Shown piece after piece: positions 5,659 through 31,997 of a DNA stretch of 34,645 nt. Source of the DNA: Lentisphaerota bacterium (GTDB lineage Bacteria > Verrucomicrobiota > Kiritimatiellia > PWTM01). Positions within the stretch are counted from its first letter, which is position 1. The number at the start of each line of letters is the position of its first letter. Made by a program: the position numbers and the translations under genes. The DNA lies in assembly GCA_016873715.1 (NCBI GenBank), contig VGWF01000043.1, positions 1 to 34,645 on the forward strand, in the 5' to 3' direction. A model generated the notes under the pieces. That model had not been told where the DNA came from and searched no databases. It saw only the letters and a list, made by a program, of their open reading frames with translations.

Positions 5659-6507
5659 ATGCATCATACGTCCAGCGGCGGGGCGGAGGCGGGCGGGGGG
5701 CTCGTGCGGGCCCCGGTGTACCTGCAGCTCAACCAGCTTCTGCGCGAGATGATCGGGCGGGAGGGGTTCAAGCCGGGGCAGCAGTTCCTCAGCGAGCGCG
5801 AGGTCGGCGAGCGGTTCGGCGTCAGCCGCGTGACGGCGAACAAGGCGCTGTCGCAGCTCGTTATCGCGGGGGACCTCGAGTTCCGCAAGGGCATCGGGAC
5901 GTTCGTGCGCGAGGGCGGACTGGACTACGACCTCCAGTCGCTCGTCAGCTTCACGCGGAAGGCGGAGGCGGCGGGGAAGCGGCCGGAGACCCGCGTGCTC
6001 GACTTCGCGACGATGCGCGCGGCCGACGCGGGCCCCGAGGTCCGCGAGGCGCTGGGGCTGTCGGGGGGCGACGCGGTCGTCCATTTCGAGCGCCTCCGGC
6101 TGGCCGACGGCGTCCCCTTCATCCTCGAGCGCCGCCACGTGGTCGCCGGCCTGTGCCCGGGCCTGACGAGGAAGAAGCTCGAAGGCTCGCTGTACGCGCT
6201 CTTCGTCCGCACCTACGGCCTCGCGGTGACCTCGGCGCGCCAGACGATCCGGGCGGTGAACCTGTCCGCCCGGGACGCCTCTCATCTCGGCGTCGCGCCC
6301 GGCTCGGCCGCACTCCGGGTGCACGCGGTCGGCGCGACCGGCCGCGGGCCGCTGTGGGTCGAGGACACCTACTACCGCGGCGACCTCTACGAGTTTCGAA
6401 ACGAACTGGGCGTCTCGGGACGGGCGCGGCCGGCGAGCCTGGCGATCGCAGGTCCTACGGACGACGGACGACGGAAGACGGAAGGGAAGAAACGGAGAAC
6501 CGCATGA
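5659..6507 (+). CDS. GntR/HutC-family transcriptional regulator (UTRA ligand domain)
   Basis: This is a 282-residue protein. Residues about 15-78 form the GntR winged helix (LREMIGREGFKPGQQF, LSEREVGERFGVSRVTANKAL, GIGTFV). Residues about 90-245 match the UTRA effector-binding domain (HFERLRLADGVPFILERRHV, closing with WVEDTYYRGDLYEFRNEL). HutC-type regulators are usually repressors released by a sugar phosphate, amino sugar or related metabolite. As first gene of the operon with an operator-like site before its ATG, it probably controls itself and the downstream catabolic genes. The last 35 or so residues (from about VSGRARPASL) lie beyond the usual end of the family. Part of this tail is translated from tandem heptamers at 6461-6495 and was probably added by repeat growth. 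Its stop overlaps the next start as ATGA. Confidence 0.85.
   Translation: MHHTSSGGAEAGGGLVRAPVYLQLNQLLREMIGREGFKPGQQFLSEREVGERFGVSRVTANKALSQLVIAGDLEFRKGIGTFVREGGLDYDLQSLVSFTRKAEAAGKRPETRVLDFATMRAADAGPEVREALGLSGGDAVVHFERLRLADGVPFILERRHVVAGLCPGLTRKKLEGSLYALFVRTYGLAVTSARQTIRAVNLSARDASHLGVAPGSAALRVHAVGATGRGPLWVEDTYYRGDLYEFRNELGVSGRARPASLAIAGPTDDGRRKTEGKKRRTA
6457..6495. repeat. Heptamer repeats in the regulator's 3' end
   Basis: Consecutive 7-mers ACGACGG, ACGACGG, AAGACGG, AAGGGAA and GAAACGG fill 6461-6495, preceded by a partial ACGG at 6457. They are purine-rich on the plus strand and end 8 bp before the next ATG. They encode a basic tail on the regulator. Confidence 0.6.
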
Positions 6508-7664
6508 GCCCGACACGATCCATCCGCGACCTGCGCGCCGGCGTCATCGGCACCGGCTTCATCGGCCCCGTGCATGTCGAGGCGCTGCGGCGGCTCGGCG
6601 TGGCCGTCACGGCGATCTGCGACGTCCCGGCCCAGGCGGAGGCCGCCGCGCGGCGCCTGGGCATCCCGCGCGCCTGCACGGACCACCGCGAACTGCTGAA
6701 GGCGGGCGACGTCGATGTCGTCCACATCGCCTCGCCGAACCGGTTCCACTGCGAGATGTCGCTGGCCGCGCTGGCGGCGGGCAAGCACGTCGTCTGCGAG
6801 AAGCCGCTGGCCATGACCACGGCCGAGACCGCGCGCATCGTCGCGGCCGCCGCGGCGAGCCGGACCGTCTTCGCGGTGAACTACAACGTCCGCTTCTACG
6901 CCGCCGTGCTGCAGATGCGCCGGATGGTCGAGGCCGGCGACCTGGGAGACATCATCCACGTCAACGGCTCCTACATGCAGGACTGGCTCTTCAAGGACAC
7001 CGACTACAACTGGCGCCTGCTGCCCGGCGAGGGCGGGAAGCTGCGGGCGGTGGCGGACATCGGAACGCACTGGATGGACCTCGTCACGTTCGTCACGGGC
7101 ACGCGGATCCGGTCCGTCCTCGCCGACCTCGGCACCTGCCACAAGACCCGGAAGCGCCCGCTCGGCGAGGTGCAGACCTTCGCGAAGTCCGACGCGAAGA
7201 TGCGCTACGCGACCTACCCGGTGAAGACCGAGGACTTCGCCTCCGTGCTGCTCGACTTCGCCAACGGAGCGCGAGGCAACCTCGGCGTGTCGCAGGTCGC
7301 CGCCGGCCGCAAGAACTGCATCCGCGTCGAGATCTACGGCTCGAAGAAGTCGGCCTGGTGGTGCTCCGAGGATCCCGAGATGCTGCACCTCGGCCACCGC
7401 GACGGCGCCAACGAGACCGCGGTCCGTGCGACGCCCGCCTTCGGCGACGGCGCCGCGGGCCTGATGGACTATCCGCCCGGCCACGTCGAGGGCTTCCCCG
7501 ACACGTTCAAGATGAACTTCCGCGCGATCTACTCGGCGATCGCCGCCGGCGGCGCGAAGCGTCCGCTGTTCGCGACCGCGAAGGACGGCCACGCCGAGGT
7601 CGCCGTGTGCGAGGCGATCCTGAGGAGCAACAAGGCCAGGGCATGGGTGAAGGTCGAGAAGTAG
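6504..7664 (+). CDS. Gfo/Idh/MocA-family NAD(P)-dependent oxidoreductase
   Basis: This is a 386-residue protein. The N-terminal Rossmann fold carries GVIGTGFIG (about residues 13-21), and the family motif EKPLAMT is present near residue 107. The C-terminal alpha/beta domain includes the conserved [13 protein letters not shown] segment and the YGSKKSAWW strand. Family members oxidise or epimerise sugars, inositols and related polyols with NAD(P)H. There is no signal peptide, so it acts in the cytoplasm. Its ATG overlaps the regulator stop (ATGA), which implies translational coupling. Together with the isomerase and aldolase downstream it probably processes an imported sugar or uronate; the substrate cannot be read from the sequence. 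Confidence 0.85.
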
Positions 7665-7730
7665 GGCGAGGGACGAGGGGCGGGGTGCGAGGGACGAGGG
7701 ACGAGGGGCGAGGGAAGAGGGACGGGGAAA
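7661..7730. repeat. Ten heptamers between dehydrogenase and isomerase genes
   Basis: Ten consecutive 7-mers run from 7661 to 7730, with consensus GAGGGAC and variants GAGGGGC, GGGGTGC, GAGGGAA and GGGGAAA. The strand is almost pure purine apart from the C ending most units. The first unit supplies the TAG stop of the dehydrogenase gene at 7662-7664. Confidence 0.7.
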
Positions 7731-7758: not shown

Positions 7759-8679
7759 ATGAAACTCGGGTTTGTAAGCGCGATCCTGCCGGAGCTGAGC
7801 CTTGACGCGGTGGCGAAGTTCGCCGCGGCCGAGGGGTTCGACTGCGTGGAGCTGATGTGCTGGCCGGTCGGCAAGGCCGAGCGGAAGTACGCGGGCGTCA
7901 CGCACGTCGATGTCACCGGGATGACGAAGACGCGGGCCGACGAGGTCAACGGCGTGATGAAGGCCCACGGCGTGGGCATCAGCGGGCTCGGCTTCTACCC
8001 GAACGCGCTGGATCCCGACGGGGCCGTCGCGCGCGCCGCGGTGACGCACATCCGCCGCGTGATCGTCGCGGCGCAGAAGCTGGGGCTCCGTCAGGTCAAC
8101 ACGTTCGTCGGCCGCGACTGGACGCGGAGCGTCGACGAGAACTGGCCCCGCTTCCTGAAGACGTGGAAGCCGCTGATCGCGTTCGCCGAGGACCACGGCG
8201 TGCGCATCGGCATCGAGAACTGCCCGATGCTCTTCACGCGCGACGAGTGGCCGGGCGGCAAGAACCTCGCCCACGCGCCGGCGGTGTGGCGCCGGATGTT
8301 CGCGGACATCCCGTCGAAGAGCTTCGGCCTCAACTACGACCCGTCGCACCTCGTGTGGCAGCAGATGGACTGGCTCGCGCCGGTGCGGGAGTTCAGGGAC
8401 AAGCTGTTCCACATCCACGCCAAGGACGTGCGCATCCGCCGCGACCGCCTGGCCGATTCGGGCATTCTCGCGACGCCGCTCACCTACCACGACCCGTGCA
8501 TCCCGGGCCTCGGCGAGATCGACTGGAGCCGGTTCGTCGGCGCGCTGATGGCGGCCGGATACACCGGCCCCGTCTGCATCGAGGTCGAGGACGACGCCTT
8601 CGGCAAGACCCTGGCCGGCCGCCGGCGCGCGCTGCGCACCGCCGGGCGGTTCCTGAGAACGTTCATTGCGGAGGGCTGA
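7759..8679 (+). CDS. Sugar phosphate isomerase/epimerase (xylose isomerase-like TIM barrel)
   Basis: This is a 306-residue protein of the AP-endonuclease-2 / xylose-isomerase-like TIM-barrel superfamily. The typical metal-site residues are visible: E153 in GIENCP, D194 and H197 in [10 protein letters not shown]220 in FHIHAKDV, and a C-terminal IEVED glutamate. These enzymes isomerise or epimerise keto sugars using a divalent metal in the cytoplasm. The start is supported by AGGGGAG at 7744-7750, 8 bp before the ATG. It lies after the heptamer tract and one base before the aldolase gene, and probably converts the product of the Gfo/Idh enzyme. Confidence 0.85.
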
Positions 8680-8680
8680 T

Positions 8681-9475
8681 ATGAAGTACACCTACGAAGA
8701 CCTCGCCAAGATGATCGACCACTCGCTCCTGCACCCGACCATGACGGACCGGGAGCTGGAGGACGGCTGCCGCCTCGCGGCGAAGTACGGCGTCGCGTCC
8801 GTCTGCATCAAACCCTACGCGGTGAAGCGCGCCGCCGAGCTGCTGCGCGGCACGGGCGTCAACGTCGGCTGCGTGATCGGCTTTCCCCACGGTCATTCCG
8901 CGACGGCGGTGAAGTGCTTCGAGACACGGACCGCGTGCGGGGACGGCGCCGTCGAGATCGACATGGTCATCAACATCGGGAAGGCGCTGTCGGGCGAGTG
9001 GGACTTCGTCGAGGCCGACGTAAAGGCGGTCTGCGACGAGGCCCACCGCCACGGCGCGAAGGTGAAGGTCATCTTCGAGAACGACTACCTGGCGAAGGGC
9101 GGGGCCGGGCTCGACGGCGATGCGTTCAAGGCCAGGCTCTGCGGCCTCTGCGAGCGCGCCGGCGCGGACTGGGTCAAGACGTCGACCGGCTACGGCTTCG
9201 TGAAGCAGCCGGACGGCTCCTACAACTACAAGGGCGCGACCGAGCACGACCTGGCGCTGATGCGCGCGAGCTGCTCGCCGAAGGTGCAGGTCAAGGCGGC
9301 CGGTGGCGTGCGGGACCTTGACGGGCTCATCAAGGTGCGCGACCTTGGCGGGACGCGCTGCGGCGCCACCGCGACCGCGGCCATGATGGACGAATACCGC
9401 CGACGCGAGGCCGCGGAGGCGGCCGGGCGGGCGACGGAGTCGGGTGGCGGAAAGATCGGAGCGGGCGGGTACTAG
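8681..9475 (+). CDS. deoC: Deoxyribose-phosphate aldolase family (DeoC-type)
   Basis: This is a 264-residue class I aldolase. The three catalytic positions of DeoC are all present: D94 in VEIDMVINIG, the Schiff-base lysine K166 in DWVKTSTGYG, and K205 in VQVKAAGGV. It opens with the family's ID-(H/L)-T/S-L-L segment as MIDHSLLHPTMTD. DeoC cleaves 2-deoxyribose 5-phosphate to glyceraldehyde 3-phosphate and acetaldehyde. In this operon, with no nucleoside phosphorylase or phosphopentomutase nearby, it may act on another deoxy-sugar phosphate. GGAGGG at 8670-8675 precedes the ATG. The last 20 or so residues (EAAEAAGRATESGG...) look like an unconserved tail leading into the heptamer tract. Confidence 0.85.
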   Translation: MKYTYEDLAKMIDHSLLHPTMTDRELEDGCRLAAKYGVASVCIKPYAVKRAAELLRGTGVNVGCVIGFPHGHSATAVKCFETRTACGDGAVEIDMVINIGKALSGEWDFVEADVKAVCDEAHRHGAKVKVIFENDYLAKGGAGLDGDAFKARLCGLCERAGADWVKTSTGYGFVKQPDGSYNYKGATEHDLALMRASCSPKVQVKAAGGVRDLDGLIKVRDLGGTRCGATATAAMMDEYRRREAAEAAGRATESGGGKIGAGGY

Positions 9476-9478
9476 GAC

Positions 9479-9605
9479 GGGAGTCGGGAGTGGGGAAAGG
9501 GGAGGCGGGAGTGGGGAATGGGGAGGCGGGAGTCGGGAGAGGCGAGGAACGGGTCGAGCTGGACTCGCGGGCTCCGGCTCCCCACTCCCGGATCCCGAAT
9601 CGACG
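9479..9605. repeat. Inverted pair of heptamer arrays before the glycyl radical enzyme
   Basis: Nine 7-mers of type GGGAGTC or GGGAGTG fill 9479-9541. A pyrimidine-rich array in the opposite sense (CTCCCCA, CTCCCGG, ATCCCGA) fills about 9572-9605. GGGAGTGGGGA on the left is the exact reverse complement of TCCCCACTCCC on the right, so the transcript could fold into a long stem just before the ribosome-binding site of the next gene. Confidence 0.65.
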
Positions 9606-9618
9606 GCGAGGTGATGTG

Positions 9619-12033
9619 ATGAAGAGACAACCGTTCGTCATGCGGTCCGGCCTTCGCCTCTCCCGCCGCGCCTTCCTCGGCGCGATCGGCGCGGCCGGGG
9701 CGGGGCGGCTGCTCGCGGGGGCGCCGTCGCCCTCGGCGGCCTCGATGGGCGCGCTGCGCCGCGAGGTGGTTGACTCGCCCTTCGCGGTCGCGCTGCACCG
9801 CGCGAGGGTGTTCACGAAGGTCTTCCAGGCCCGTGAGCGCGACCCGTGGGTCGTCCGCAAGGCCGCGGCGCTGCGCGAGTACTTCGAGACGGTTCCGCTG
9901 CACATCCGGTCCCACGACGGCATCGCCGGGACCATGTCCGAGAGACCCGGCGCAATGCCGGTGATGGTCGAACTCGGCATCGCGGAGAACCCGATCTGGA
10001 CGTCCGAGAACCCCGCGCGCGCCGGACACCTCGCCGGGCAGGTGCCGGAGGAGATCCGCGAGTACTGGGCGAACCGGAACCTGTGGGGCCTCTACCGCAC
10101 GGAGCTGATGGGCCAGCCGCCGGTCAAGTCCGCGGCCGACCTGCCGTCCGAGACGAGCTACAAGTTCATCTCGAACCAGGGGCACCTGAGCCCGTCCTAC
10201 GGCGAGCTGCTGCGCGCCGGGCTCGGCGGCGTGCTCGACGGGGTGAGGCGACGCAGGACCGCGGGGGCCGACGCCGAAGGCCTCGCCTTCCTCGGCGCGG
10301 CGGAGGATGCGCTGGCCGGCCTGTCCGCCTGGATCGCGCGCCACGCGGAGTTCCTCGCGTCCGAGGCCGGGCGATGCGACAACGCCGCGCGCGCCTCGGA
10401 ACTGCGCGAGATGGCGCGGATCGCGGGCCGCGTCGCGACGCAGCCGCCGGAGACGTTCCGCGAGGCGCTGCAACTGGTCTGGTTCGTCCACCAGGCGGTC
10501 CACATCGAGGGCCACGGCTACTCCTGCACGCCGGACCGGATCGACCAGCTTCTCCTCCCGTTCTACGAGCGCGACGTGAAGGCCGGCCGGCTCGACGACG
10601 CGGCGGCGCTGCGGCTCGCGGAGAACTTCGCGCTGAAACAGTACGACAACTCCTTCTGGGGGCCGGAGCACCACCTGACGCAGGGCCTGTGCGTCGGCGG
10701 CTCGACGCCCGACGGGCGCGACCAGACCAACCGCCTGAGCTGGCTCTTCGTCGAGGCCCACACGAACCTCGTGCTGCCCGAGCCGCTGCTGTGGATGCGC
10801 TGGCACCCGAAGATCGATCCGAAGTTCTTCGACTTCTGCCTCTCGCGACTGGAGCGCAGCACCTGCTTCCCGATGCTCTGGAGCGATGTCGCGATCCCGG
10901 CGGCGCTGCAGGAGCTCGGCATCGCGCGCGAGGACGCCTTCAACTACGTCCCGGTCGGCTGCAACGAGCTCGCCGTGCCCGGCAAGTGGTACTACAACCC
11001 CGGTGCCCATTGCGGCTACCTGCAAGCCGTCGAGGCCGCGATCACCGGCGGGGGCGGGCACAAGGGCCAGTGGAAGTGGCGCGACGTCGCCCCGGCGCCT
11101 GCGCAGCTCGCGACGTTCGACGCCTTCGCGGACGCCGTCGCCGCCTACATCCGCGCGGCCATGAAGAACGGCCGCGACAACCAGATGAAGGACCTCACCG
11201 CCCAGATCCGCTGGGGCAAGACGCCGCTGACCTCGTGCTTCTTCGACGGCTGCGTGACGCGGGCCCGCGACATGGCCGACGGCACGGCCTACAACTTCCT
11301 CTCCTGCGGCGGCATCGCGTTCGCCAATGCGATCGACTGCCTCGCCGCGGTGCGCGAGGTTGTCTACGAGAAGAAGCAGGCGACGCTCGACGAGGTCGCC
11401 GCCGCCTGCAAGGCCAACTTCGAGGGCCACGAGCGGCTGCGCGCGAAGCTGCTGGCTGCGCCGAAGCACGGCAACGACGACCCGCGGCTCGACGACGTGA
11501 TCCGCCTCGTCGAGCGCATGCGCGACCAGCCCCTGGCCGAGCTTTGCAGGGATCCGCGCGACGGCAGCCGCTTCGGCAACAGCCATGTCGTCCGCAGCGG
11601 GGCGGTCAAGCAGGGCCGCGTCACGCCCGCCACGCCCGACGGCCGGCTCGCCGGAACGCCGCTCGCGAGTTCCGTCGCGGCCTCGATGGGCTGCGAGCGC
11701 AACGGACCGACCGCGGTGCTGAACTCCGTCTGCAAGCTCGACTCGACCAAGAGCTGGCAGTGCGGATACCAAGTCAACATCCGCTTCCACGCCGGGATGG
11801 TCTCGAGCGAGGGCCAGCGCGCGAAGCTGCAGGCGATGCTGAACGCCTATTTCGCCAGGGGCGGGCAGGAGCTGCAGATCAACGTGGTCAGCGCCGACAC
11901 GCTGCGCGCCGCGCGGGCGAATCCCGATGCCTACCGCGACCTCGTCGTGCGCGTCGCCGGCTTCAGCGAGTTCTTCGTCCGCCTGACGCCGGACATGCAG
12001 GAGGAGATCATCGCGAGGACGGAGCACGGATGA
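9619..12033 (+). CDS. Glycyl radical enzyme (PFL/dehydratase family) with twin-arginine signal
   Basis: This is an 804-residue glycyl radical enzyme. The thiyl-radical cysteine is C448 in VGCNELAVPG and the glycyl radical residue is G781 in RVAGFSEFF, 24 residues from the C-terminus, as usual. The Glu two residues after the Cys (E450), used as acid/base in dehydratase-type members, is present, but the motif is GCNEL rather than GCVEP. Substrate is therefore not assignable; a dehydratase or C-X lyase is more likely than a pyruvate formate-lyase. Residues 13-40 look like a twin-arginine export signal (SRRAFLG at 15-21, then a weakly hydrophobic Ala/Gly stretch), which is unexpected because GREs and their activases are cytoplasmic. 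The start is supported by GAGGTGA at 9608-9614. The next in-frame ATG that would remove the signal, at 9745, has no comparable ribosome-binding site. The activase gene follows. Confidence 0.85.
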   Translation: MKRQPFVMRSGLRLSRRAFLGAIGAAGAGRLLAGAPSPSAASMGALRREVVDSPFAVALHRARVFTKVFQARERDPWVVRKAAALREYFETVPLHIRSHDGIAGTMSERPGAMPVMVELGIAENPIWTSENPARAGHLAGQVPEEIREYWANRNLWGLYRTELMGQPPVKSAADLPSETSYKFISNQGHLSPSYGELLRAGLGGVLDGVRRRRTAGADAEGLAFLGAAEDALAGLSAWIARHAEFLASEAGRCDNAARASELREMARIAGRVATQPPETFREALQLVWFVHQAVHIEGHGYSCTPDRIDQLLLPFYERDVKAGRLDDAAALRLAENFALKQYDNSFWGPEHHLTQGLCVGGSTPDGRDQTNRLSWLFVEAHTNLVLPEPLLWMRWHPKIDPKFFDFCLSRLERSTCFPMLWSDVAIPAALQELGIAREDAFNYVPVGCNELAVPGKWYYNPGAHCGYLQAVEAAITGGGGHKGQWKWRDVAPAPAQLATFDAFADAVAAYIRAAMKNGRDNQMKDLTAQIRWGKTPLTSCFFDGCVTRARDMADGTAYNFLSCGGIAFANAIDCLAAVREVVYEKKQATLDEVAAACKANFEGHERLRAKLLAAPKHGNDDPRLDDVIRLVERMRDQPLAELCRDPRDGSRFGNSHVVRSGAVKQGRVTPATPDGRLAGTPLASSVAASMGCERNGPTAVLNSVCKLDSTKSWQCGYQVNIRFHAGMVSSEGQRAKLQAMLNAYFARGGQELQINVVSADTLRAARANPDAYRDLVVRVAGFSEFFVRLTPDMQEEIIARTEHG

Positions 12034-12163: not shown

Positions 12164-13069
12164 ATGAAGGGACGCATCTTCGACATCCAGCGCTTCTCGA
12201 TCCACGACGGACCCGGGATCCGGACGACGGTCTTCCTGAAGGGCTGTCCGCTGCGCTGCCTGTGGTGCGGGAACCCGGAGAGCCTGACTCTCGAACCTCT
12301 GCTGTCCTACATGCCCGACCGCTGCATCGCGTGCGGGGAGTGCGAGCGCGCCTGCCGGTTCGAGGCCGTGTCCGGCGGCACGGCCGGCGCGACCGCGGCG
12401 ATCGACCGCAAGGCCTGCACGGTCTGCGGCGAGTGCGTGCCGGTCTGCGACCCGAAGGCGCTGGAACGGGTCGGGCGCGACGCGACGATCGGCGAGGTCA
12501 TGGCGCTCGTCGAGCGCGACCGCGACTACTACGCCTCGTCCGGCGGCGGGATCACGCTGTCCGGCGGCGACCCGGTCTTCCAGCCGGATTTCGCGGCTGC
12601 CTTGCTCGAGGCGGCGCGAAGCGCGCGGCTGCACACGTGCGTCCAGACCTCCGGCCACGCGCCGTGGGGCGTGCTGGCGCGCCTCGCGCCGCTCACGGAC
12701 CTGTGGCTCTATGACTTCAAGGAGACCGACCCCGTTCTCCACAAGCGCTTCGTCGGGGAGTCGAACGAGACGATCGTCGACAACCTGCGCCGGCTCCACG
12801 GCACGGGCGCGAGGATCCTGCTGCGCTGCCCGATGATTCCCGGCCACAACGACCGCGACGCGCATCTCGACGGCATCGCCGCGCTTGCGCGGGAGCTGCC
12901 GAACCTGGTGGGCGTCGAGCTGCTGCCCTACTACGACCTCTGGCGCGCGAAGCTGCCGCGGCTCGGGCTGTCGACGACCTTCCCGGAGACCGTGAAGCCG
13001 CCGTCGCGCGAGACGATGAAGGCCTGGAACGAGCGGTTGCGGCGGCAGGCGGTGAAGGTGCAGGGCTGA
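12164..13069 (+). CDS. Glycyl radical enzyme activating enzyme (radical SAM)
   Basis: This is a 301-residue radical SAM protein. It opens with FDIQRFSIHDGPGIRTTVFLKGC, which is diagnostic for GRE activases. The SAM-cluster cysteines are C28, C32 and C35 (CX3CX2C). Two ferredoxin-type four-cysteine motifs follow (C54/57/60/64 and C85/88/91/95), placing it with the dehydratase-type activases rather than the short PFL activase. The glycine-rich SAM segment reads SGGDPVF instead of the usual SGGEP. It would abstract hydrogen from G781 of the enzyme encoded just upstream. It has no signal peptide, so activation must occur in the cytoplasm. The ATG at 12164 was preferred because it begins the conserved domain; upstream residues in this frame come from the repeat region. 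Confidence 0.9.
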   Translation: MKGRIFDIQRFSIHDGPGIRTTVFLKGCPLRCLWCGNPESLTLEPLLSYMPDRCIACGECERACRFEAVSGGTAGATAAIDRKACTVCGECVPVCDPKALERVGRDATIGEVMALVERDRDYYASSGGGITLSGGDPVFQPDFAAALLEAARSARLHTCVQTSGHAPWGVLARLAPLTDLWLYDFKETDPVLHKRFVGESNETIVDNLRRLHGTGARILLRCPMIPGHNDRDAHLDGIAALARELPNLVGVELLPYYDLWRAKLPRLGLSTTFPETVKPPSRETMKAWNERLRRQAVKVQG

Positions 13070-13085: not shown

Positions 13086-13271
13086 ATGACCGGGAAAGAC
13101 CTACGCGTGGCGTTTTCCGCGGGGGGTATCGGGATCGCAATCGTCGTCATCGAACACAACGGGGCCGTGGTGAACCGGGCCATCTGAATCCCGCTTGTCA
13201 TGAGTCTGCTCTTCAACGGTGCTGCGATGGTCGCCGCTCATGCTGTCCGGAAGAAAGGACCGGCACGGTGA
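13086..13271 (+). pseudogene. Small membrane-protein gene interrupted by an in-frame TGA
   Basis: A strong ribosome-binding site (GGGAGGGAAGGA, 13072-13083) precedes an ATG at 13086. The frame encodes 33 residues with a hydrophobic stretch (VAFSAGGIGIAIVVI), meets TGA at 13185-13187, then continues in the same frame for 27 more codons with a second hydrophobic stretch (IPLVMSLLFNGAAMVAAHAV) and a basic end, stopping at 13269-13271. That final stop overlaps the next gene's start as GTGA, the coupling seen elsewhere in this operon. This suggests a two-helix protein of about 60 residues broken by one nonsense change (TGG to TGA is one possibility). UGA readthrough or two separate tiny genes are alternatives. 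The family is not recognised. Confidence 0.4.
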
Positions 13272-14617
13272 AGCCGGGGCGGACCTCCAGGACGAGTGCT
13301 CGAGTTGCCGCTCTGGCGGTCGGTACGGCAACCTGGGCCTTTGCGGGGCCTGTCGGATCGCCGGAACACCCCAACGTCGTCCTGATCCTCTGCGACGACC
13401 TCGGCTACGGCGACGTGGGCTGTTACGGCGCGGCGGACCTGCGCACGCCGTACCTCGACCGCATGGCCGCGGAGGGGACGCGGTTCACGGACTTCGCCGT
13501 CGCCGCGCCGCTCTGCACGCCCTCGCGCGCGGCGCTGATGACCGGCCGTTATCCGGGCCGCAGCGGGCTGGCCACCGGCGTGCTGCGTCCGGACGCCACG
13601 AACGGCCTCGCCGCCGCCGAGGTCACGCTCGCGGAGATCGTGAAGCCCCGCGGCTACGCGACCGGCTGCATCGGCAAGTGGCACCTCGGGTTCAAGCCCG
13701 GCATGCGGCCGATGGACCAGGGCTTCGACAGCTATTTCGGCGTCCTGCACAACCTCGACAAGTTCGAGACCGTGCAGTTCGAGGCCGAGGGCGGCACGCC
13801 GGTGCTGCGCGGCGACGCCGTGGTGAAGCGTCCGGCCGTGCCCGCCGAGATGACCGGGATGTACACCGAGGAGGCGCTCCGGTTCATCGAGGCGAACCGC
13901 GCGCGCCCCTTCTTCCTCTACCTCGGCCACGCGATGCCGCACATCCCGTTCGACGCCTCGCCGCGCTTCAAGGGGCGGTCCGCGCGAGGTCTCTACGGCG
14001 ACGCGGTCGAGGAGCTCGACTGGAGCACGGGGGAGATCCTCGGCAAGCTGCGGGCGCTCGGCCTGGCGTCGAACACGATCGTCCTCTTCACCAGCGACAA
14101 CGGTCCCGAGCGCAACACGCCCGGGAGCGCCGCGCCGCTGCGCGGAACGAAGCACACGGTTTTCGAAGGCGGCCTGCGCGTGCCGTTCCTCGCCTGGGGT
14201 CCCGGCCGCGTGCCCGCGGGCCGCGTGTGCGGGGAGTTCGTCGCCGCCATGGACGTGCTGCCCACGCTGGCGGAGCTGTCCGGCGGTGCCGTGCCGGCGG
14301 AACGGACGGTCGACGGATCGAGCTTCGCCGCGCTGCTGCTCGGCCGGGAGGGCGCACCGTCGCCGCGGAGGGATCTCTACGCGCTCTACGGACTGAACCA
14401 GCGCCGCCAGCAGTCGATGCGCGACGGTCCGTGGAAGCTCCACCTCGGTGCCGCGCCCGAACTCTACAACCTCGACAGCGACCTCGGCGAAACGAACGAC
14501 GTTGCGGCCGCGCATGCGGACATTGTCGAGCGCCTGACCGGCCTCGCCGGCCGTATCCGCGATGTGACGCTCGGCGTCAGCGGCGACGGCGGGCTGCCCC
14601 CCGTGCCTCCCCGATGA
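13268..14617 (+). CDS. Secreted sulfatase (type I, CTPSR), first of three in the operon
   Basis: This is a 449-residue type I sulfatase with a signal peptide-like N-terminus (to about residue 28). PNVVLILCDDLGYGDVGCYG contains the paired metal-binding aspartates. CTPSR at residues 83-87 is the formylglycine signature, with C83 the residue to be modified. HLGFKPGMRPMDQGF and a later TSDNGPE segment are also typical. It hydrolyses sulfate esters, presumably on a polysaccharide, outside the cytoplasm. The GTG start at 13268 overlaps the preceding stop and has AAGAAAGGA at 13251-13259. No sulfatase-maturing enzyme is in the window. An aryl-sulfatase A-like fold is likely; the substrate cannot be assigned. 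Confidence 0.85.
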   Translation: MKPGRTSRTSARVAALAVGTATWAFAGPVGSPEHPNVVLILCDDLGYGDVGCYGAADLRTPYLDRMAAEGTRFTDFAVAAPLCTPSRAALMTGRYPGRSGLATGVLRPDATNGLAAAEVTLAEIVKPRGYATGCIGKWHLGFKPGMRPMDQGFDSYFGVLHNLDKFETVQFEAEGGTPVLRGDAVVKRPAVPAEMTGMYTEEALRFIEANRARPFFLYLGHAMPHIPFDASPRFKGRSARGLYGDAVEELDWSTGEILGKLRALGLASNTIVLFTSDNGPERNTPGSAAPLRGTKHTVFEGGLRVPFLAWGPGRVPAGRVCGEFVAAMDVLPTLAELSGGAVPAERTVDGSSFAALLLGREGAPSPRRDLYALYGLNQRRQQSMRDGPWKLHLGAAPELYNLDSDLGETNDVAAAHADIVERLTGLAGRIRDVTLGVSGDGGLPPVPPR

Positions 14618-28109: not shown

Positions 28110-31100
28110 ATGGCTGACCCGGGGGCGCAGATCGCCGGGCTTCCGCGCGGGGCGGCGGGGCTCGTGGCGGGGCTGGGCGCGTTTGCGGTGCTCGCGCAGA
28201 CGATTCTCTTCCGCGCCTTCTTCGAGACCTTCGAGGGAAGCGAGTTCGGCATCGCCGCCTTTTTCGCGTCGTGGCTGGTCTGGGTCGCCGCGGGCGCGGC
28301 GCCGGCCCGGACGCTCGCGCACCGCGCGGGCGCGTGGCCGCGGCTGGCCCTGCTGTCGCTGCTCTACATTCCCGCCGCGGCCGCGCAGCTCGTCCTGATC
28401 GCCCGAGCGCGCGACCTGGCGGGCGTCTCGCCGCACGATCTCTTTCCCGTGCTGCGGATGCTGCCGGCGGCCTTCGTCGTCAACGCGCCGGTGAGCCTGC
28501 TGACCGGTTTCCTCTTCACGGCGGCCTGCGCGGCGGCGCGAGGCACGCCGGGCGCCGTCGCGCGCGTGTATGCCCGGGAGGCACTGGGGGGCGCCGCGGG
28601 CGGGGCGACGGTCACCGTGCTGCTCGCGGCGGGGATCACGGACGAGCGCGCCCTCCTCGTCGGCGCTGCCTGCCTCGCGCTCTCCGCCGCCCCCGCTGCC
28701 GGCGGCACGCGCCGCGCCGCCGCGCCGCTGGCGCTGGCGGCCGGCATCGCGGTTGCGCTGTTCGCCGGGGCGGACGGCTGGTGGACCCGCGCCGCGGACC
28801 TGCGGGCCTGGTCACGCCTTCTCCCGGCGGAGTCCTTCGCCGGACGCTTCGCAACCCCGCAGGCGGTCTACCGCCTCGGCGAGCGCGACGGCGCATGGAT
28901 CGTCCAGTCGCGCGAGTCGGTCGTCGAGACGTTGCCCGCGGACGCGCATGACGCGGAGGTCGCCGCGCTGCATCTCGCCGCCGCGCCGCACGCGAGCCGC
29001 GTGCTCGTAATCGGCCCCGGCTCGCTTGGTGTCGCGCAGGCCTTCCTGCGCGTGCCGTCGGTCCGCGAGGTCGTCTGGCTCCCGCCCGATCCGCAGTATC
29101 CGGCCGCGCTGCTGGAGCGCCTGCCGCGCGGACTCCGCCCGGACTCCGCCCGTTTCAGCGCGCCCGCCCGCGAGACCCGCGCCTTCCTCTCCGGGAAAGG
29201 GCCCGCGTTCGATCTCATCGTCCTGCACGTGCCGGACCCGGTCAGCCTGTCGCTGAACCGCACCGTGTCGCAGGACTTTCTCCGCCTCACGGCCTCGCGC
29301 CTCGCCGAGGGCGGCGTGGCGGGGCTGCGGATGTCGGGCGGGGAGAACTACCTCGGGCCGGAGCTGGCCCGGCTGGGCGCATCGATGCTCGAGACGGCGG
29401 AATCGGTCTTCCGCCACGTGATGCTCAAGCCCGGCGACGAGAGCTGGCTCCTGATGACGGACCGTCTCTCGGACTTCAGCTCCCCGGACCGCATGTCGCG
29501 CCTCTACGCCGCGATCCCCGGCTCCGAGGCCCTGGCGCCGGGCGAGGTCGTCCGCGCCGCCTTCCCGGCGGGGCGCGCCGAGGCGCAGCTCGCGCGCTAC
29601 CGCGCCGCGCAGGAGACGGCGGCGCCCGGCTCGCTGCTCAACCGCGACGCCCATCCGCTGGCGCTCTCCGCGGCGCTCGCGATCGGGCTCAAGCACTCCG
29701 GCGCGCGGTCCGCCGCCGCGGCGTGGCCCGGCGCGGTCCGTCCGGCGGCCTGGGCGCTGGCGTCCGCCCTTGCGGCGCTGGCGCTCCTGCGTTGCGCCGC
29801 GCGGTGGCGGCGACGCGACCCGGGCGCGGCGGTCGTGCCGGCGGGCGACATCGCGCTGCTCGCCGCGGCCGCCGGTGCGGTGGGCATGGCGACGAGCCTT
29901 CTCCTGATGTGCGCGTGGCAGACGCTGCACGGCGGGCTCTTCCTCCACGCCGGCCTTCTCTCCGCGCTCTTCATGCTGGGCCTGTGGGGCGGGGCGGCGG
30001 TCTCCCGCGCCGTCGCAGCCCGCGCGCCGTCCGCGGTCCTGCTGTCGGCGATCCTGCTGCATGCGGCGGCCCTGGCGGTCTTCGCCGCGACGGGAGCGGC
30101 ATGGAGCCGCCCGGTGTTCGCGACGGCGTTCGCGGCGGCCGGAGCGCTGGGCGGTCTCTACGTGCCCGCGGCGGCGTCGCTTCTGGCGCGGCGCGGATCC
30201 GACGACGCATCGTCGGGCGCATGGATCGAGACGCTCGACCACCTCGGCGGCGCCGCGGGGAGCCTCGCGGCCGGGCTCGTCGCGCTGCCGGCGCTGGGCC
30301 TCGGCGGCTCGGCCGCGTTCGTCGGCGCGCTGGTGCTGCTCGTGCTGCCCGCCGCGCTGCCGTTCGCGACCGCGGCCCGGCGCGGCTGCGACGACGCGGC
30401 GGACGTCGCGCTCCGCCGCCTCGGCCTCGCGACGGGCGTCGCGCTGCTCGGCGCCCTCGTCTTCGGCGCGGCGTGGCGTGCCGACCGCGCGCGGGAGGGC
30501 GGCGACCCGCTCGTCCGCGCCGCGCGGGACATGGCGCCGGATGCGCTGTTCCGCCGCATCGACGTGGCGCTGCCCGGCGGACGCACCGCCGCGTGCCACG
30601 TCGCAGGGCCGGAGACGGCGCCCGGGGACCACGTGTTCTCCACCGCGGGGTTCGGCGCGCGGGTGCAGGGCTACGGCGGCACGATCGACCTGGCCCTGCG
30701 CGTCGGGCGCGACGGCGCGCTGCGGGACCTTCGCGTGCTGGCGTCGCGCGAGACACCGCGCTACTTCGCGCGCCTCGACCGCTGGTTCGAATCGCTGCGC
30801 GGACTGAACGTGGGCGATCCCGCGGAGCGGCGGAAGGTCGACGGCGTCAGCGGCGCGACGGTCTCCGCGAACGCGGTGGCCGACGCGATCTTCGCCGCCG
30901 GGCCCGTCTTCGCCGCGGCGGTGCTGGCCGGCGGGACGGGGCCCGGGACCGGGCCGGCGTCCGGCCCGCTGCGGCTCCCGCGCGAGACGCTGCTGCTGGC
31001 GCTCTTCGCCGCCGCGGCGATGGTCCTGCGCCGCTTCGAGGCGCGGGCGTGGGTGCGGCGGCTGTTCCTGATCGCCGTGGTCGGGGTCTTCGGGCTGTGG

Positions 31101-31997
31101 CTTAACGTCCAGTTCTCGCTGTTCCACCTGCGGATGTGGATCGATCCGCCCTGGCCGCGGCCTTCGTGGGGGCTCTCGTTCGTGCTGCCGTTCGCGATCC
31201 CGGCGGTCGTCCTGCTGGCGGGCAACCTCTACTGCGGGTGGCTCTGTCCGTTCGGCGCGCTGCAGGAGCTGGTGCTCGCGCTCCGCCCGCGCCGCTGGCG
31301 CACCGGGCCGCCGCCGTGGGCGTTCCGCTGGGGCCGGTGCGTGAAGTACGCGATGCTGGCCGCGGCCGCGACGGTGTGGGTGATGGAGCCGGCGGCGAGG
31401 CTGTTCGATGCCGATCCGCTGACGGTGGCGTTCTCCGGCGAGGCGACGCGCGGCATGGCGCTGCTGGTGCTGGGCGCGCTCGCGGCGTCGTGGCTCGTGC
31501 CCCGCTTCTGGTGCCGGGTGCTGTGTCCGTCGGGCGCGCTCCTTTCGATCGTCTCGGCGTTGCGTCCGGCGGAACGCCTGTGGCCGCGCGTGCGGCCGCG
31601 TTGCTGCGACCTTGGCGTTCGGGCGCGCAGCGACCTTGACTGCCTCGCCTGCGACCGGTGCAGGGTGGAGGGCGCGGCGGCGGTTCCGGCGGTCGCCCCG
31701 GCGTGGCGGGCCGCGCTCTTCGCGGTGACGGGCCTCGCGGCGTGCGGCGGACTGGTCTCGCTGGCGGCGAGGCACGCCGCGCCTCCGGCCGCCAGCCCGG
31801 CGCCGGAGGAGGCCGCACCCGCGGCAGAAACCGGCACGGCCCTCTCCGCGGACCAGATGCGGGAGATCCGTCGGCGGATGCAGGAAGGCCGGCTGTCGTC
31901 GCGCGAGGCGCTCTTCTACTCGGCGGCGACCAACACCCCGTCGCCGCCGGCCGGCGGCCGGCAGCGGCGGAGGGGGCTGGGACGGGATGAGCGATGA
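28110..31997 (+). CDS. Membrane fusion: spermidine-synthase-like + FMN-binding + NapH-like iron-sulfur
   Basis: This is a 1295-residue polytopic membrane protein. The N-terminal part has several hydrophobic segments, then a spermidine-synthase-like Rossmann domain (VLVIGPGSLGVAQAF, about 298-312), then further membrane segments. Residues about 840-935 form an NosR/RnfG-type FMN-binding domain; DGVSGAT (911-917) is the flavinylation motif, with T917 the likely covalent FMN site. After more membrane segments come NapH-like motifs: CGWLCP (C1042, C1046), CRVLCP (C1135, C1139) and a Cys-rich CLACDRC segment. It probably moves electrons across or along the membrane; partners are unknown. The C-terminal residues (PPAGGRQRRRGLGRDER) end in heptamer repeats. 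A -10-like TACGAT lies 8 bp before the ATG and there is no ribosome-binding site. Confidence 0.75.
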   Translation: MADPGAQIAGLPRGAAGLVAGLGAFAVLAQTILFRAFFETFEGSEFGIAAFFASWLVWVAAGAAPARTLAHRAGAWPRLALLSLLYIPAAAAQLVLIARARDLAGVSPHDLFPVLRMLPAAFVVNAPVSLLTGFLFTAACAAARGTPGAVARVYAREALGGAAGGATVTVLLAAGITDERALLVGAACLALSAAPAAGGTRRAAAPLALAAGIAVALFAGADGWWTRAADLRAWSRLLPAESFAGRFATPQAVYRLGERDGAWIVQSRESVVETLPADAHDAEVAALHLAAAPHASRVLVIGPGSLGVAQAFLRVPSVREVVWLPPDPQYPAALLERLPRGLRPDSARFSAPARETRAFLSGKGPAFDLIVLHVPDPVSLSLNRTVSQDFLRLTASRLAEGGVAGLRMSGGENYLGPELARLGASMLETAESVFRHVMLKPGDESWLLMTDRLSDFSSPDRMSRLYAAIPGSEALAPGEVVRAAFPAGRAEAQLARYRAAQETAAPGSLLNRDAHPLALSAALAIGLKHSGARSAAAAWPGAVRPAAWALASALAALALLRCAARWRRRDPGAAVVPAGDIALLAAAAGAVGMATSLLLMCAWQTLHGGLFLHAGLLSALFMLGLWGGAAVSRAVAARAPSAVLLSAILLHAAALAVFAATGAAWSRPVFATAFAAAGALGGLYVPAAASLLARRGSDDASSGAWIETLDHLGGAAGSLAAGLVALPALGLGGSAAFVGALVLLVLPAALPFATAARRGCDDAADVALRRLGLATGVALLGALVFGAAWRADRAREGGDPLVRAARDMAPDALFRRIDVALPGGRTAACHVAGPETAPGDHVFSTAGFGARVQGYGGTIDLALRVGRDGALRDLRVLASRETPRYFARLDRWFESLRGLNVGDPAERRKVDGVSGATVSANAVADAIFAAGPVFAAAVLAGGTGPGTGPASGPLRLPRETLLLALFAAAAMVLRRFEARAWVRRLFLIAVVGVFGLWLNVQFSLFHLRMWIDPPWPRPSWGLSFVLPFAIPAVVLLAGNLYCGWLCPFGALQELVLALRPRRWRTGPPPWAFRWGRCVKYAMLAAAATVWVMEPAARLFDADPLTVAFSGEATRGMALLVLGALAASWLVPRFWCRVLCPSGALLSIVSALRPAERLWPRVRPRCCDLGVRARSDLDCLACDRCRVEGAAAVPAVAPAWRAALFAVTGLAACGGLVSLAARHAAPPAASPAPEEAAPAAETGTALSADQMREIRRRMQEGRLSSREALFYSAATNTPSPPAGGRQRRRGLGRDER

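Follow-up and report, generated by a model that had tools for sequence, protein, structure and literature searches.

Glycyl radical enzymes with a predicted Tat leader form a distinct clade in Verrucomicrobiota and Planctomycetota

To our knowledge, all known glycyl radical enzymes (GREs) act in the cytoplasm or inside a microcompartment, since their radical is sensitive to oxygen and the radical SAM enzyme that makes it is cytoplasmic. GRE dehydratases convert a vicinal diol to a deoxy-aldehyde, and some microcompartment GREs bear N-terminal extensions. For the GRE described here, the closest solved relatives by sequence (1r8w, E 1.5e-97) and fold are the B12-independent glycerol dehydratase and 1,2-propanediol dehydratase. 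The 1,5-anhydrosugar-phosphate GREs YbiW and PflD give a similar alignment score, and in E. coli ybiW-ybiY-fsaA the GRE lies beside the aldolase gene FsaA, as the GRE described here lies beside DeoC. However, neither YbiW nor PflD groups with the GRE described here in the tree, and both are leaderless; the phosphate esters that they take as ligands are substrates of a cytoplasmic kind, and PDB titles list 1,5-anhydroglucitol-6-phosphate bound to YbiW. For export, the nearest likeness is the Zymomonas glucose-fructose oxidoreductase, a Gfo/Idh/MocA enzyme described as Tat-exported in folded form with its NADP (Halbig 1999, as cited in PMC6708511). Both would be sugar enzymes exported folded and with their cofactor via Tat, but the oxidoreductase holds NADP, while a GRE holds a protein radical that is destroyed by oxygen and is not renewable outside. 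Searches of the open literature turned up no account of a GRE that is exported, nor any relevant paper on GREs bearing a Tat or other signal; a 2024 examination of the GRE family uses neither signal peptide nor periplasm nor export as a term.

The window (the whole stretch of DNA analysed, 34,645 nucleotides of contig VGWF01000043.1 from a Lentisphaerota bacterium) encodes a GRE whose frame, opened by ATG9619, begins MKRQPFVMRSGLRLSRRAFLGAIGAAGAGRLLAGAPSPSAASM... (Table 1). Both the barrel domain and the Gly_radical domain are present (Pfam PFL-like, 2.9e-109; Gly_radical, 4.6e-24), and in Foldseek comparisons the fold is that of a GRE, resembling the glycerol, propanediol, and choline enzymes, with 1r8w as the best match (TM 0.72) and values of about 0.7 over the chain against solved GREs. 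The AF2 model (pLDDT 75.5) is sufficient for the fold and insufficient for active-site detail. The protein matches no NCBIfam GRE equivalog (CutC, HypD, sulfopropanediol dehydratase, PRK09983), the best score being 327 bits against a cut-off of 1000, and it scores 437 bits against subfamily TIGR01774, below the cut-off of 678. In a pairwise alignment, H164, C433, and E435 of glycerol dehydratase correspond to H189, C448, and E450, which we take to match the dehydratase catalytic set. The residues that bind substrate in glycerol dehydratase (H164, H281, S282, and D447, C. butyricum numbering) are only partly kept, as H189 and S302, while H281 and D447 align with Y301 and P461. On these profile and alignment results the protein is a GRE, yet none of the named ones. 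It differs further from glycerol and propanediol dehydratases in its predicted Tat leader and in the lack of a microcompartment shell gene in its own genome.

Table 1. Features of the GRE gene and its neighbours in the window (positions count from the first letter of the window)
Feature	Coordinates	Strand	Evidence
GntR/UTRA regulator of the cluster	5659..6507	+	Pfam UTRA 9.2e-35, GntR 1.1e-12; linked in 4 other loci
Gfo/Idh/MocA dehydrogenase, no leader	6504..7664	+	Pfam; linked in 6 other loci
Xylose-isomerase-like TIM barrel, no leader	7759..8679	+	Pfam AP_endonuc_2 1.7e-41; linked in 5 other loci
DeoC-type aldolase, no leader	8681..9475	+	TIGR00126 187 bits (cut-off 117); linked in 8 other loci
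Shine-Dalgarno-like GAGGTG, 5 bases 5' of ATG9619	9608..9613	+	Read directly
GRE gene, 804 aa, predicted N-terminal Tat leader	9619..12033	+	Pfam, 15 close homologues, Foldseek
Leader, residues 1-42: n-region, twin arginine, hydrophobic stretch, A-x-A sites	9619..9744	+	1r8w alignment, AF2, conservation
Twin-arginine motif S15-R-R-A-F-L20	9661..9678	+	R16, R17, and F19 invariant in 16 clade members
Catalytic cysteine C448, in G-C-N-E	10960..10962	+	Invariant across 16 clade members; aligned with the GCVE cysteine of glycerol dehydratase
Radical-bearing glycine G781, in RVAGFSEFF	11959..11961	+	Conserved in the clade; present in every member long enough to include the position
Radical SAM GRE activase, no leader	12164..13069	+	TIGR02494 321 bits (cut-off 174)
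Sulfatase, N-terminal Sec-like signal	13268..14617	+	Pfam Sulfatase 3.5e-61; 70-72% identity in four linked loci

Residue 43 of the window GRE aligns with residue 13 of the 1r8w chain, and because the alignment begins there, the first 42 residues are an addition to a complete GRE domain; residues 1-34 have an AF2 pLDDT below 50. An earlier note on this DNA had described SRRAFLG at residues 15-21, a hydrophobic stretch after it, and a full GRE with C448 and G781, all of which the sequence bears out, and had suggested that an activated enzyme could in principle be exported by Tat, with a membrane anchor or a later start as the alternative. The hydrophobic stretch is Ala/Gly-rich and contains A-x-A sites. 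A homologue scan of one genome per species, for which the query was the window protein aligned to its relative from G013, yielded 17 loci; G013, G108, and a truncated G127 copy came from further genome searches (G013 and L061 denote the same record). The count of N-termini leaves out L058, which has N's there, and L062 and L070, which lie at contig ends; in each of the 16 clade members whose N-terminus can be read, window included, [ST]RRxF[LM] is followed by a hydrophobic stretch, so that the homologues share the twin-arginine N-terminus, a point that the earlier note had left to a homologue search. Members are 64-73% identical and come from MAGs labelled Planctomycetota, Verrucomicrobiota/Lentisphaerae, Acidobacteriota, and Bacteroidota, although the Acidobacteria and Bacteroidales labels derive from MAG titles and may reflect binning errors.

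Beyond the three invariant positions of the motif, L20 and G24 stand at 94% and the remainder of the 16 leaders has diverged, with a mean top-residue identity of 51% in the leader versus 79% in the mature part of the clade alignment. Because leader length (31-45) and letters vary while R16, R17, and F19 are fixed and are written with varied codons (CGC/CGA/CGG for the first arginine, CGC/CGT/CGA/CGG for the second, and TTC/TTT for the phenylalanine), this is, at the sequence level, the pattern expected of selection for a Tat signal. Of ten clade N-termini, nine had NCBIfam TIGR01409 (TAT_signal_seq) as their top profile match, five of them above the cut-off of 16.7 bits, with the window leader slightly below it at 16.0 bits; Pfam TAT_signal does not match the window leader. 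None of nine N-termini from leaderless GREs was matched by TIGR01409; those matched GRE models instead. Shuffling the window leader yields [ST]RR.F[LM] in 0.07% of trials, and a chance twin arginine in a GC-rich frame is ruled out by this figure together with the homologues, the leaderless-GRE controls, and the varied codons. We regard the predicted Tat signal on the window GRE as almost certainly real.

The leader is also restricted to its clade. In a FastTree phylogeny of 123 GREs (local support only), the carriers occupy one side of a single branch with support of 100, and a scan of 133 GRE sequences with a loose rule on motif and hydropathy found a leader in the 16 clade members and one other protein, the remaining matches being of LRRA type inside the GRE fold or not leader-like. 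Of the roughly 110 further GREs from these groups, only this unrelated singleton carries a leader; the second GRE of the window genome (L035) has none. The singleton is the second GRE of a Pirellulaceae contig (L052:5992-8469, minus strand), with a strong Tat leader by TIGR01409 (23.3 bits, above cut-off). It shows 30% identity, sits on a long branch elsewhere in the tree, is convergent with the activase of the first GRE on that contig, and has no close relative among 398 planctomycete genomes; this GRE may have gained its Tat leader independently. A decayed copy of the window GRE occurs in G002, a genome of the same family (L034:7409-8259, minus strand), with about 400 residues missing, two TAG stops, and no Tat leader upstream, and a 44%-identical activase still adjoins it.

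The machinery for such export is encoded in the carriers. TatC was found in all 15 carrier genomes tested and also in the window genome, where one TatA/B gene precedes tatC by about 400 bases and another is located elsewhere, so the tat genes that the earlier note had proposed to locate are present. By profile search only, the window genome has 116 matches to TIGR01409, around 60 of them above the cut-off. Among 19 proteins scanned from its best Tat leaders (L168-L197), 12 are Gfo/Idh/MocA oxidoreductases and three are xylose-isomerase-like TIM barrels, so by annotation this organism appears already to export folded, cofactor-holding sugar enzymes via Tat, and a Tat-exported GRE would be a natural, though undescribed, addition. 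Conserved leader and Tat genes together support the export signal described in the earlier note, and we consider Tat export of the folded GRE likely on sequence grounds. Against it stands the high cysteine content of the mature protein, which is atypical for an exported protein; full-length members have 14-17 cysteines, and as a hint of disulfides this count gave nothing clear.

A leader recognised by Tat could nevertheless stay uncleaved, leaving the GRE anchored in the membrane and facing the periplasm, or making it a lipoprotein in some members. Four of the 16 leaders (L052, L064, L065, L066) lack an A-x-A after the h-region, and the L059 leader has a cysteine after it, but the other 12 have an A-x-A at a plausible place, where the leader would be cut; we judge an anchored form unlikely for the clade.

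Somewhat less likely still is that the GRE leaves the cell uncharged, or loses its radical, and acts outside as a non-radical protein. A live radical would be hard to maintain there, given oxygen and the absence of an external activase; once spent, it could not be restored outside, where activase, SAM, and reductant are lacking, which also counts against our preferred reading. A haem-copper oxidase is encoded in 10 of 15 carrier genomes, so some hosts may meet oxygen, the destroyer of GREs; the window genome has no COX1-family oxidase. However, the active-site neighbourhood is kept across phyla along with C448 and G781, and the activase, leaderless in the window as the earlier note had stated, adjoins the GRE in 13 other distinct loci and lies 4.3 kb off in L060, although none was found in the flank of the L055 GRE. 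A non-radical role is disfavoured because an unused radical would leave nothing to hold C448, G781, and the adjoining activase in place. Export of a charged, working radical enzyme, which the earlier note had put forward as possible in principle, is the leading explanation, and a fairly probable one.

Translation might instead begin later, at ATG9745 or so, which is close to the start of other GREs (about residue 38 in window numbering); the leader would then not be made and the protein would be an ordinary cytoplasmic GRE. The earlier note had raised this alternative and had named homologues that start there without the twin arginine as what would refute export, but all 16 readable N-termini of the clade carry the leader, L053, L056, L063, and L065 have no ATG near the equivalent position, and the RR-F residues are conserved at the protein level with varied codons. 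Inspection of the sequence revealed no Shine-Dalgarno-like sequence ahead of ATG9640 or ATG9745, leaving ATG9619 as the only start so preceded. We reject a late start as very improbable. GRE-associated microcompartments are known (PMC6325248), but the leader is even less likely to be an encapsulation peptide, since the window genome has no shell gene (PF00936) and the conserved feature, RRxFL plus an Ala/Gly hydrophobic stretch, is the Tat pattern.

The neighbourhood of the window GRE was compared by tblastn of window proteins over the homologue loci, where genes for DeoC, the TIM barrel, Gfo/Idh, GntR, and one sulfatase keep reappearing. The sulfatase, whose Sec-like N-terminus was read from the sequence without a predictor, has an orthologue directly upstream of the GRE in L033/L061, L069, and L055, and in L033, L069, and L055 there is a four-base overlap between its frame and the GRE start codon. 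In L033/L061 and L069, sulfatase, GRE, and activase are on one strand and GntR, Gfo/Idh, ROK, TIM barrel, and DeoC on the other; L055 shows the same divergent split without activase and ROK, and in L060 the GRE is divergent from Gfo/Idh-TIM-DeoC. The enzymes predicted to be exported are thus grouped in these loci, as are those predicted to be cytoplasmic. The nearest NCBIfam model for the window Gfo/Idh/MocA dehydrogenase is levoglucosan dehydrogenase, below cut-off. G-rich short tandem repeats of period 7/21 occupy intergenic gaps of the cluster (7663-7728 and 9478-9547), one of them directly upstream of the GRE.

Based on these observations, we propose that the clade is a distinct GRE subfamily that is probably exported by Tat, charged in the cytoplasm, and active in the periplasm as a dehydratase or eliminase. 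The GRE would be synthesised and folded in the cytoplasm, receive its glycyl radical there from the neighbouring signal-less activase, and pass the Tat translocase folded and charged, much as the NADP-loaded glucose-fructose oxidoreductase does. In the periplasm, the Sec-exported sulfatase of the same cluster would strip sulfate before the GRE carries out a cofactor-free dehydration or elimination on the desulfated polyol or sugar. As DeoC, the kinase, and the Gfo/Idh dehydrogenase look cytoplasmic, the product must then be imported, for which we identified no transporter, and could be handled by the dehydrogenase, the TIM-barrel isomerase, a ROK kinase in some loci, and the DeoC aldolase. We lean towards a radical that is installed in the cytoplasm, carried out by Tat, and used for periplasmic dehydration or elimination in sulfated-glycan breakdown, with the activase perhaps checking that only charged enzyme leaves.

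DeoC cleaves 2-deoxy-aldose phosphates. Because a GRE dehydratase yields a deoxy-aldehyde, a route from polyol or sugar to deoxy-aldehyde, then import, ROK phosphorylation, and DeoC cleavage is attractive, but it is a tentative guess that may well be wrong.

If the proposed export is correct, protein radicals can withstand passage through a membrane and then serve on the outside as a one-time charge. The clade would then offer a direct test of whether Tat proofreading senses a post-translational radical, and for Planctomycetota and Verrucomicrobiota it suggests that sugar breakdown in the periplasm includes a radical step.

Elsewhere in the window, a 171-bp unit is repeated in tandem at positions 916-1718 (4.7 copies with 97% matches), and a 1295-residue frame at 28110-31997 combines FMN_bind and Fer4_5 domains in an unusual fusion, with a long N-terminal part that by eye resembles a membrane spermidine-synthase-type protein.
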